In this document: positions 16,461 to 40,747 of the stretch, piece by piece
Position numbering within the stretch: the first letter of the stretch is position 1
Layout: the number at the start of each line of letters is the position of its first letter
Source: Patescibacteria group bacterium
GTDB taxonomy: Bacteria > Patescibacteriota > Minisyncoccia > Phycocordibacterales > UBA918
NCBI GenBank assembly: GCA_019750255.1
Contig: JAIEOU010000003.1
Coordinates: 83,350 to 124,096, forward strand
DNA length: 40,747 nucleotides
Reading direction: 5' to 3'
Notes under the pieces: generated by a model
Seen by the model: the letters and a program-made list of their open reading frames with translations, nothing else
What the model was told of the DNA's origin: nothing
Database searches by the model: none
Translations under genes and position numbers: made by a program

Positions 16461-16535
16461 GACATTAACCAAAAAAAGAGTACTATTGTAGTTAATCCGC
16501 CCCCGAGGCGTTTTTATTTTGCTAAACTATTAGGT

Positions 16536-16724
16536 ATGAATGCACTCAGTAAATACTTCCGCGACACCTTTGCCGAAATGCGACAGGTGGCGTGGCCAAC
16601 CCAATCACAGGCCCTCAAGTACACCGCGCTCGTGGTCGCGATTTCAGTATTCGTGGCGCTGTTTGTAGCTGCCTTTGACTACCTCTTTTCGCTTGGGATT
16701 AATGCTATCGTAACCTCTTTCTAA
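16536..16724 (+). CDS. secE: Preprotein translocase subunit SecE
   Basis: 62 aa, KYFRDTFAEMRQVAWPTQSQALKYTALVV, single TM, directly before nusG. Confidence 0.92.
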   Translation: MNALSKYFRDTFAEMRQVAWPTQSQALKYTALVVAISVFVALFVAAFDYLFSLGINAIVTSF

Positions 16725-16728
16725 TTAT

Positions 16729-17274
16729 ATGGCTAAACAAGTTTCAACAGGCGAACGGCACTGGTACGCGATTCACACCTACTCGGGCTATGAGAATGCC
16801 GTAACGCGCAACCTCAAGCAGCGTATCGACTCACTCGGCATGCATGACAAAATTTTCAACGTTGTCGTGCCAACTGAAAAAAAGATTCGGGTAAAGGGTG
16901 GCAAGCGTGTTATGGAAGAGGAGCGTATCTACCCTGGATACGTCCTCGTAGAAATGGTAGTGGATGATGAGTCGTGGTACGTCGTGCGTAACACGCCACG
17001 GGTCACCGGGTTCGTCGGTAGCGGCACCCAACCAGTACCCCTCACACAGGCCGAGTACGACTCGCTCATGAAGCGTATGAGTACTGATACCGTGAAGCAT
17101 AAGGTTGATGTCTCGGAAGGTGACCTTGTGATTATTACCGATGGTCCGTTTAAGGAGCTTGAAGGGAAGGTGGGTGGTGTTGACGAAAAGAGCGGCAAGG
17201 TAAAGGTGCTTGTTGCCATGTTCGGTCGCGAAACTCCGGTTGAACTCGACTTTTTGCAAATTAAGCGGGTTTAA
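16729..17274 (+). CDS. nusG: Transcription termination/antitermination protein NusG
   Basis: HWYAIHTYSGYENAVTRNLKQRI...YPGYVLVEM...VTGFVGSGTQPVPL; KOW GDLVIITDGPFKELEGKV. Confidence 0.97.
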   Translation: MAKQVSTGERHWYAIHTYSGYENAVTRNLKQRIDSLGMHDKIFNVVVPTEKKIRVKGGKRVMEEERIYPGYVLVEMVVDDESWYVVRNTPRVTGFVGSGTQPVPLTQAEYDSLMKRMSTDTVKHKVDVSEGDLVIITDGPFKELEGKVGGVDEKSGKVKVLVAMFGRETPVELDFLQIKRV

Positions 17275-17305
17275 GGAGGCCGTAGGCCGACTATAAACCG
17301 CTTAT

Positions 17306-17450
17306 GCAGGCGCTTCATTATTTCTGAGCATCAAAGCGAAAGAAATAATGGTAGCGAGCTGCGAAAAAGAGTATGAATTGGCGAATAACTTCGTCGGTAC
17401 GGAAAAAGGAGCGCTTGCTGGACACGTGTCCCACTCGCGCTCCTTTTTCC
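17306..17450 (+). ncRNA. Candidate structured RNA (element A): three-stem hairpin plus linker plus terminator
   Basis: GCAG-G-CGCT-T-CATTATTTC / GAAATAATG-GT-AGCG-AG-CTGC with loop TGAGCATCAAAGCGAAA, then terminator GGAAAAAGGAGCG...CGCTCCTTTTTCC (17401-17450). Confidence 0.55.
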
Positions 17451-17576
17451 TAGACTCCTCGTTCTTCATCCAATTTCTGCCTTTTGATAAAAGCCCCTGT
17501 GTGCTGCTAAATGAGCTAATTAACAAAACGCCCGCAAGCTATGCTCGCGGCTGTTTTGTTTGTATATAAAAAGAAT

Positions 17577-20716: not shown

Positions 20717-20745
20717 AAATGCAGTTCGCCGCCACTTCTTTTTAA

Positions 20746-20797
20746 CAAACACAACCGCTGAATTCTCCCTGTGGGGTCGAATTCAGCGAAGTGTTTG
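20746..20797. terminator. Bidirectional terminator-like hairpin between convergent dcd and thyX
   Basis: CAAACAC-AAC-CGCTGAATTC ... GAATTCAGCG-AA-GTGTTTG. Confidence 0.75.
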
Positions 20798-20828
20798 CCT
20801 AAGCAAAATATAGTCGGCCTAAGCCTCC

Positions 20829-22208
20829 TTAGTTCTCCTCAACTTTTACAATGTCACTTTCGCCGCGCTTTACGTTAAAGCGTCCCGGGTCTGGGTCGAG
20901 GTGAAGTGTGAGACCAGTATCAGCATAGGCGTCCCTAAGAAGGACAGCCATTTCCGCTGCGCGCTTAGCGAGGGTGGGGTGGACGAGGCTTGTCGCCCGT
21001 AGCTCCACGAGATAGGCGAGTGCCGGTAGGTCGCCTGAAAGGTAGTTGCTGATATCCAGCCCCATGGGGAGATAGTACTGTCGCACGGCAGCGTCGGGTG
21101 TGATTGTCTGCGCAGATGCGAGTTGGCTCGCAATCAATGCTTCGGCTTTGGTGCGCAAGGTCGGAGTGAGTTCACCCAAGTACCACTGATTAAAGCCCAA
21201 ATCGGCCGTAAGAAGCGGCATTCTTTGGGTAACCGCACGGTGGCGTTGAATGTCACGAAATGAACCGAAGTCTAACGTAAAGGCAAAGGCTGCCTCTCCG
21301 TAGGCGCCGAGGAATTTTGGTAGCTCGGTTTTTGCGGGCCGCGCGGCAATGAGTTCGCGGTATGGTGCAAGCGCGGCCTTGTCGATGCTGTCGCGGACGA
21401 GCGCTACCGCCGGTGATTTCAGGTCATGATAGTAGTAGTGCTTATACGAAGCCTTAACGTACGCTTCCGTGCCTTCGTAGCGCTTCTTGTTGGTATCAAA
21501 GGAGTTTGGGTAGACGGTAATCAAGGCGTCTTCCAATTTTTCAGCAATCTCCCGGACCTCAAGGAGGGGATGGTGGCGTAGCTGGAGTATGCGGTCGGCA
21601 AACTGGCGTAAGGTCGTTGTCCAAGCCAGGTTCGTAGAAGCACCAGCCGGGAGAAAGCCCCGGCACATATCAAAGGCGCGCGCCGCAATCGCTTTTTGAT
21701 AAATCGTTTCTTTTTCTTCTGCCCCGCGGGGGTAGCGGGCCGGAAGCGCCGCTTTCATTTCAGCCACCGCTTCCAGATAAAACGTCCGCCAAGTTTCAAG
21801 TACAATGGTACTTTCAGGTGTCCCTACGGGATCAATAAAGGGCTGGGCGGCAAAATCAATGTAGCGGGTTGACGCCTCCTGTCCGTTGTACAGTTTTGAG
21901 TCTTGAATCGCTTTAGCGGCCAGCATCGAGATACCTTCCACAAACACAATCGCGCTGCCGCAGTCACCGATTGATTTGTGTCCGTAGCCAACGTAGTAGG
22001 TGGACATAAATTTTTCCGCCCCGCGCTCGGCGAGGACCTTGAGGTGCTCATCGATACCCCCAGTTGAGCGCGAGTGGAGCGCCTGTAGCATTGAGGTGGC
22101 TTCAGCATTCAACACGGCTCCGGGATTAAGGATTACAATCTTGCCGCCGCCCACGAGCCCGGTCGTGTGGTGGGTGAGGTCGGCCAAATCATTAGTATGG
22201 GTTTTCAT
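20829..22208 (-). CDS. thyX: FAD-dependent thymidylate synthase, tandem ThyX-domain fusion
   Basis: 459 aa, about twice the usual ThyX length; first half VGYGHKSIGDCGSAIVFVEGIS...NGQEASTRYIDF, second half FGSFRDIQRHRAVTQRMPLL. Confidence 0.85.
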   Translation of the reverse strand: MKTHTNDLADLTHHTTGLVGGGKIVILNPGAVLNAEATSMLQALHSRSTGGIDEHLKVLAERGAEKFMSTYYVGYGHKSIGDCGSAIVFVEGISMLAAKAIQDSKLYNGQEASTRYIDFAAQPFIDPVGTPESTIVLETWRTFYLEAVAEMKAALPARYPRGAEEKETIYQKAIAARAFDMCRGFLPAGASTNLAWTTTLRQFADRILQLRHHPLLEVREIAEKLEDALITVYPNSFDTNKKRYEGTEAYVKASYKHYYYHDLKSPAVALVRDSIDKAALAPYRELIAARPAKTELPKFLGAYGEAAFAFTLDFGSFRDIQRHRAVTQRMPLLTADLGFNQWYLGELTPTLRTKAEALIASQLASAQTITPDAAVRQYYLPMGLDISNYLSGDLPALAYLVELRATSLVHPTLAKRAAEMAVLLRDAYADTGLTLHLDPDPGRFNVKRGESDIVKVEEN

Positions 22209-22352
22209 ATGGTCCTAGTGTAGCTTTGTGGCCGAGAGCGCGCTTGTGGATCTTGCGGGGATAGTGTGTACTTGTGGTGTTTAGGACATGGAGCAGGGGG
22301 GTTGTATAGACTTCTTGTGCGAAAAGAAGGCTGCTTATGGTATAAAAAAGCC

Positions 22353-39410: not shown

Positions 39411-39573
39411 AGCACACCACCGGCCCAGCTACTTTGTTGGCGCTATCGTAAAAACGTTCACCGTACACCTACGTACGCCTCACGTTTTTACTCCGCGCCG
39501 CCGCGTATCTGAACCAGTGGCTGCACTCTAGAATCAGGCCGCTGACGTTCCGCTGATTAAAATTAAAAATATG

Positions 39574-39628
39574 CAGGTTGCCACCGTTACTTTTTTCGCT
39601 TTGATGCTCAAAAGTAACGAGGCAACTG
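39574..39628 (-). ncRNA. Candidate structured RNA (element C), minus strand, between ssb and rpsR
   Basis: Minus strand CAG-TTGCC-T-CGTTACTTTT / AAAAGTAACG-GT-GGCAA-C-CTG with loop GAGCATCAAAGCGAA. Confidence 0.45.
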
Positions 39629-39696
39629 ACTAAGGAAAACATAGTCTCAGCTCCGCTGCTCCTTGTTTCTCCTCATTATTAGATAAAAGTATTCCC

Positions 39697-39900
39697 ATGG
39701 AAAAGCACAACCTCCACAAGAAAGCCCCGGTCGAACACGTCGACTACAAAGACATTACCCGTCTGGGAGCCCTCGTAAACCCACACGCTCGTATCCTCAA
39801 CCGCCGCCGCACCGGCTTTACTGCCAAGCAGCAGCGCGACCTCTCACGAGGCATCAAGCGCGCTCGATTTATGGCCCTCATGCCGTACATCCAACACTAA
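39697..39900 (+). CDS. rpsR: 30S ribosomal protein S18
   Basis: VDYKDITRLGALVNPHARILNRRRTGFTAKQQRDLSRGIKRARFMALMPYI. Confidence 0.95.
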   Translation: MEKHNLHKKAPVEHVDYKDITRLGALVNPHARILNRRRTGFTAKQQRDLSRGIKRARFMALMPYIQH

Positions 39901-39910
39901 GCAGAAACAA

Positions 39911-39930
39911 AGAGCGGCGTAAGCCGCTCT
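39911..39930 (+). terminator. Terminator after rpsR
   Basis: AGAGCGGC-GTAA-GCCGCTCT then TATGTTTT. Confidence 0.75.
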
Positions 39931-39943
39931 TATGTTTTGCTTA

Positions 39944-40073
39944 CGTGGGCGCTTCACTAGTTTCGACCCTTAAAGGGAGAAACTGGTGGCAGCGAGCCAC
40001 GGTGAACACTCCAAATAGTACTTCCAGTATCAAACACTTCGGCGGATTGTCCCTTCACAGGGACAATCCGCCG
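39944..40073 (+). ncRNA. Candidate structured RNA (element B): three-stem hairpin plus linker plus terminator
   Basis: CGTGG-G-CGCT-T-CACTAGTTTC / GAAACTGGTG-GC-AGCG-AG-CCACG with loop GACCCTTAAAGGGA; terminator CGGCGGATTGTCCC-TTCACA-GGGACAATCCGCCG (40040-40073). Confidence 0.55.
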
Positions 40074-40568: not shown

Positions 40569-40747
40569 AAGACGCGCATTGTCGGGAAATCATCAGGTTC
40601 CGGAAGTAGCGGCGAAATTACCCTTAGGGTAGCTTCGCACGCACTCCCGGGCCTTTCATTTTTTATACTACTTAGACTCAAACCCCAACTGCACTAATAC
40701 CAAATAGTTTAGCAAACGATTCTTCTGGTGTCTCCCAGTTTAATGTC

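Follow-up and report, generated by a model that had tools for sequence, protein, structure and literature searches.

Does the hairpin that follows nusG in this genome belong to a small transcript of its own, or is it one copy of a repeat scattered over the chromosome? The window (the whole stretch of DNA analysed here, 40,747 nt of contig JAIEOU010000003.1 from a Patescibacteria group bacterium) contains three related elements, A, B and C, which an earlier note had interpreted as a structured RNA family under selection for its fold and not as a copied DNA repeat. The hairpins of A and B fold exactly as that note described (z-scores relative to dinucleotide shuffles: −6.8 and −8.6). Element C is indeed the same element as A; its strand had to be corrected, as it lies on the minus strand, and its reverse complement is 77% identical to A across 62 nt; the 17-nt loop (TGAGCATCAAAGCGAAA) is the same in both. 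The window also holds a 27-nt inverted pair (TTTGCTAAACTATTAGGTATGAATGCA; 16518–16544 and 40690–40716; 89% complementary), one arm of which is located just upstream of a small ORF preceding nusG.

The described hairpin proved to be the second half of a larger unit. When twenty copies are aligned, conservation starts upstream of it, at a TAAG sequence, with an additional 5′ hairpin that had been missed; the complete unit is thus a pair of hairpins, which starts at TAAG, ends at the foot of hairpin 2 and measures about 105 nt. Hairpin 1 has the consensus TAAGGAGAAAYA-AGGAG-(small hairpin)-CGACTA-TRTTTTCCTTA with a bulged G and a stem of variable sequence. Hairpin 2 follows the consensus GCAR-N-CGCT-T-(9–10 bp)-GA-(3 bp, loop)-GA-(9–10 bp)-GY-AGCG-AN-YTGC, that is, stem 1, a small internal loop, the CGCT/AGCG stem, the T/GY internal loop, a variable stem 3 and an apical tandem-GA motif. 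The 5′ boundary is sharp at TAAG, and the flank preceding it is unconserved except for an A/T bias at position −1. The 3′ end reads NAA(A/G), and conservation of the 3′ flank fades just beyond the foot of hairpin 2. Some copies hinted at a conserved tetranucleotide in the flank (TTTC/GAAA, bottom strand), which the flank logo does not bear out.

Table 1. Coordinates of the repeat units, their hairpins and copies of the second structured family. R1 is a covariance model built from 17 copies; z-scores refer to dinucleotide shuffles.
Feature	Position in the window or locus	Strand	Remarks
Element A, full two-hairpin unit	17262..17367	+	R1 match 113.6 bits (C15:100611-100716)
Element A, hairpin 1	17262..17304	+	TAAGCGGGTTTA / TAAACCGCTTA, bulged G, conserved internal loop AAGGAG...CGACTA
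Element A, hairpin 2 (hairpin of the earlier note)	17306..17362	+	fold z −6.84
Element B, full unit	39898..40005	+	R1 match 93.7 bits; starts exactly at the rpsR TAA stop codon
Element B, hairpin 1	39898-39943	+	5′ of the hairpin described earlier
Element B, hairpin 2 (hairpin of the earlier note)	39944..40001	+	fold z −8.56
Element C, full unit, between ssb and rpsR	39568..39675	−	R1 match 102 bits; reverse complement aligns to A
Fourth copy, absent from the earlier note	20740..20841	−	R1 match 76.2 bits
Second structured family, copy 3′ of element A	17374..17476	+	covarying alignment A5
Second structured family, copy downstream of ssb	39417..39521	+	row 2 of alignment A5
Second structured family, nusG downstream regions	L143, L145, L146, L149, L155, L157		
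Second structured family, rpsR or ssb downstream regions	L174, L177, L182, L185, L186, L188		

Several copies depart from the standard architecture. Three composite copies of this genome (G000:C13:34610, C12:70802 and C15:12966) contain a third module resembling hairpin 1 between hairpins 1 and 2 (CCAATTTTTAAGGAG...CGACTATGAAAATGAAGTACTCCTGTGG). At two further loci (G000:C13:94-249 and C14:79293-79370) hairpin 1 is joined to a different second hairpin (GTCAGATTTTCCTC...GAGGAAAATCTGAC), and the hairpin 1 module therefore combines with other partners as well.

The claim that the stems differ in sequence yet keep pairing, from which selection on RNA structure had been proposed, is borne out by covariation among 60 distinct copies that far exceeds both shuffled and slid controls. 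Already among the 17 seed copies 28 of 33 pairs have changed on both sides (covariation score 0.498, versus 0.203 for shuffled alignments). With 60 distinct copies the figure rises to 31 of 33, with a score of 0.492 versus 0.180 in shuffled alignments and at most 0.083 for structures slid by 1–3 columns; the changes occupy 355 cells versus 97 in shuffled alignments, the copies being related and the cells hence not independent events. On each of five measures, none of 500 shuffles reached the observed value, and slid structures stayed at background. Pairs are intact in 94.8% of cases at a mean stem divergence of 24% from the consensus, while independent columns would yield 76%; alignments fitted to a structure or a model do lean towards pairing. 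The internal loops are kept across copies too (the bulged G, AGGA/GACTA, T/GY and GA/GA), as had been stated for the 1×2 loops of A and B.

Mismatched pairs indicate which strand adopts the fold. Read on the described strand, they comprise 57 G-T and 15 A-C combinations (19 and 6 in the first alignment, built without a covariance model), implying that this strand, as RNA or as single-stranded DNA, is the one that folds; strand-biased cytosine deamination can be another source of such an excess.

A BLAST search with element A detects approximately ten further places in the 950-kb, 16-contig genome, and a search by layout pattern adds others. The covariance-model search which the earlier note had proposed as a check finds about 60 places in the 950 kb (64 matches with 60 distinct sequences on one pass), occurring in both orientations and in several cases at contig ends. 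At one locus (G000:C10:8016-8370) copies share one hairpin head-to-head and form a near-identical 187-bp tandem, which suggests local amplification. Related genomes contain further matches, and none of the outcomes that the earlier note had named as refuting its claim was encountered. The spread is patchy: with the same filters, 63 copies are counted in this genome and 0–11 in 34 other species of the genus. No match was obtained in 240 sampled genomes of the class outside the genus, a search of limited sensitivity in which few candidates were scored per genome. The exact hairpin 1 pattern identifies 11 stretches over GTDB species, whose record titles read Patescibacteria, Paceibacterota, Parcubacteria, Kaiserbacteria and related names, one being labelled only as "bacterium"; the same pattern has no match in viral contigs. 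Two loose regular-expression scans produced mostly noise and were set aside except for one mismatch count.

The roughly 40-nt linker and intrinsic terminator, earlier regarded as part of the element, do not belong to the unit, as conservation stops just past the hairpin foot. After A, they are part of a separate repeat family that covaries on its own, with 21 of 22 predicted pairs changed on both sides (alignment A5). It is built of an outer stem, AAAAATAAC.../...GTTATTTTT, and an apical motif YTCRCYG-GAC...GTC-CACTC, and many species of the genus carry it downstream of nusG, ssb or rpsR.

Two whole units were found nested inside hairpin 2 of other copies, both at the same position (...AAAGGGA|TAAACAG...GTGTTGTA|GAATCC and ...AAAGGGA|TAAGCAG...GTGTTTGT|GAAAATAATGG). 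Removal of the nested unit restores the host hairpin exactly, and no target duplication is present; partial cases and cases of hairpin 1 alone are seen there too. A TA target duplication of the IS630-like type was considered and rejected, as the restored nested sites lack TA. The distribution among relatives is uneven also at single loci: B is absent 3′ of rpsR in the 26 other readable congener loci, and the sister species G004 has no A at nusG. Judged from these sequences, nested insertions without target duplication together with the patchy distribution indicate mobility. Inspection of the Y1 loci of this genome and genus found no mobilising gene linked to the repeats.

Many copies start right at a stop codon. 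In 12 of the 60 copies, counting those with sufficient flank, the stop codon of an upstream sense gene falls within the first 13 nt of the unit, and in three more it lies in the 13 nt before it, with none further out within 39 nt; this enrichment could partly reflect that the unit itself supplies stop codons and that only harmless insertions survive. Genes on the opposite strand show no comparable peak of stop codons at the 3′ end of the unit in the same 60 copies. The genes at docked copies include nusG, rpsR, groEL, ftsZ, infC, khpA, an aminoacyl-tRNA synthetase gene and a thyX-like gene (20832–22214, minus strand; Pfam Thy1), whose stop codon is overlapped by the fourth copy of the window. 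The native C-terminus is kept in all four genes that were compared with relatives (nusG, rpsR, ftsZ and groEL). Docking at ftsZ is the same in this genome (G000) and in G032, and G027 possesses a degraded form.

At nusG, the first 13 nt of element A are the last codons of the gene and the stop codon, the latter located at element position 13. The 5′ arm of hairpin 1 is made of the native terminal codons (QIKRV or QVKKI) together with the stop codon, and the untranslated 3′ arm changes along with them: the arms are TAAGCGGGTTTA/TAAACCGCTTA in this genome, TAAGAAGATTTA/TAAATTTCTTA in G034 and G002, TAAAAGAATTTA/TAAATTCTTTA in G024 and CAAGAAAATTTA/TAAATTTCTTG in G022. In these five species, which use different codons and are scattered over the genus tree, 10–11 of 11 pairs form between the codon arm and the 3′ arm, and the latter is preceded by CGACTA or TGACTG. 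The remaining nusG loci form 7–9 of 11 pairs and lack the motif. Hairpin 1 stems of copies in other species are likewise very different in sequence with pairing kept.

We propose, with a probability of about 0.6, that A, B and C are copies of a dispersed REP/MITE-like repeat of mobile origin, in which selection sees the folded single strand. A putative mobilising enzyme would recognise the fold and insert the unit without target duplication. Copies landing in sense on a stop codon would join the 3′ UTR of the upstream gene and persist there as RNA structures, with hairpin 1 overlapping the stop codon and hairpin 2 placed between it and the gene's own terminator. The most likely effect in this position would be on mRNA 3′-end stability or on translation termination, and it may be mediated by a protein that binds the conserved loops. 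The opposition of structured RNA and copied DNA repeat is a false alternative: the structure is conserved, as the earlier note held, and the element is a dispersed, probably mobile repeat as well.

An independent trans-acting small RNA of 130–145 nt with its own conserved terminator, as originally suggested, would agree with the strong structure and with the terminator that follows both A and B. However, nothing beyond the hairpin belongs to the unit, linker and terminator show no conservation (after A they are part of another repeat), and some 60 copies occur in both orientations, many of them in predicted 3′ UTRs starting directly at a stop codon; we regard such an sRNA as very improbable. 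Covariation plus an adjoining terminator does not by itself establish an sRNA. Integron attC sites carry terminal core motifs. These are missing from the boundary alignment, and the copies are dispersed beside housekeeping genes with no cassettes between them, so that attC recombination sites or remnants of cassette arrays can practically be dismissed, even though a folded attC site has a similar layout (stem, spacer loop, stem, variable terminal structure) and some copies abut in tandem.

The main rivals are mobilisation in trans by a RAYT enzyme and homogenisation by template switching. According to the former, the units are true REP elements moved on single-stranded DNA by a RAYT-type Y1 transposase (TnpA_REP) of the genome. 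A single RAYT-like Y1_Tnp gene is in fact present (225 aa; L021:1300-1977, G000:C9, at C9:10401), and bulged hairpin repeats in many extragenic copies, inserted without target duplication, are compatible with its action. However, this gene is not flanked by the repeat, and neither are the 29 other Y1 loci of the genus, bar one noise-level match (E 0.097). Nor do the two always occur together: G020, G034, G002 and G006 have repeats without a Y1 match, and G001 and G012 show the reverse. Besides, the unit ends carry no GTAG or CGTC tag, and the unit comprises two hairpins over 105 nt instead of one of 20–40 bp, which leaves us doubtful about this explanation. The second rival holds that quasi-palindrome (template-switch) mutation homogenises the palindromes, so that matching changes are mutational and imply no function. 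Stems can be both created and repaired by template switching, with compensatory changes of several bases (PMC8794818), and the nusG 3′ arm is a reverse-complement copy of the codons. Such repair would, however, erase the conserved bulges and internal loops (bulged G, T/GY, tandem GA), it does not account for G-T intermediates outnumbering A-C ones, and it leaves the conserved loop motifs AAGGAG and CGACTA unexplained. We therefore consider it unlikely as a general explanation, although template switching may contribute at nusG.

There is also a bolder interpretation, which we put forward only tentatively and hold to be improbable as a whole: a new type of mobile RNA module, docking in sense on stop codons, serving as a shared 3′-UTR controller of core genes and moved by a non-RAYT system. 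It would include that the host's last codons serve as one arm of hairpin 1, with the other arm adjusted to them, and that the module controls mRNA fate or translation termination at nusG, rpsR, groEL, ftsZ and others. Despite the tiny genomes of CPR bacteria, an elaborate folded repeat is present here in about 60 copies, many of them at the ends of core genes. Together they amount to a natural covariation experiment, in which matched changes preserve one fold across some 60 copies and in several species, coding changes in nusG that are mirrored in an untranslated arm among them. Whether repeats of this kind are selfish DNA or RNA regulators, or began as the one and became the other, is thereby turned into a testable question.

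The earlier note knew of no matching family, and this agrees with Rfam, which gives no gathering-level match and nothing plausible at E-values up to 5; the literature search found no paper in which "repetitive extragenic palindromic" and "Candidate Phyla Radiation" occur together. Like integron attC sites (PMC8946536), the repeat combines a folded strand with a variable terminal stem and conserved unpaired bases, and differs from them in lacking core motifs and cassettes. With the ends of IS200/IS605 elements and their non-autonomous derivatives it shares subterminal hairpins and insertion without target duplication; unlike them, it has no conserved tetranucleotide in the left flank and no linked Y1 gene. 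BOX, RUP and ERIC are modular intergenic hairpin repeats of about 100–200 bp, proposed to act as RNA. Compared by description, the present family resembles them as a modular hairpin repeat in intergenic DNA and differs in taxon and architecture.

The closest known kind are REP/MITE-like repeats without a known transposase. As in REP, BIME and REPIN sequences (PMC3733652, PMC3116915, PMC6006769), the copies are extragenic and dispersed; they form imperfect palindromes with bulges, frequently lie 3′ of genes, and show G-T stem pairs, clusters and a patchy distribution among species. In being multi-copy and divided into stem-compensated subfamilies they correspond to REPs, and as in CGTC REPs a linked transposase is absent. 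For repeats of the kind without a known transposase, G-T pairs in the stems and a location 3′ of genes have led to the proposal of RNA roles (PMC3733652). REP superfamilies are defined by a GTAG or CGTC tag (PMC3733652), which a minority of our copies have close to an end (within about 10 nt) and which is not found at the unit ends themselves; further differences from REP are the two-hairpin unit, the changes on both sides of nearly every pair, the use of host codons as a hairpin arm at docked stop codons, and the restriction to Patescibacteria. The family is previously uncatalogued and is set apart from REP/MITE repeats by its architecture, tag, extent of covariation, stop-codon docking and taxon.
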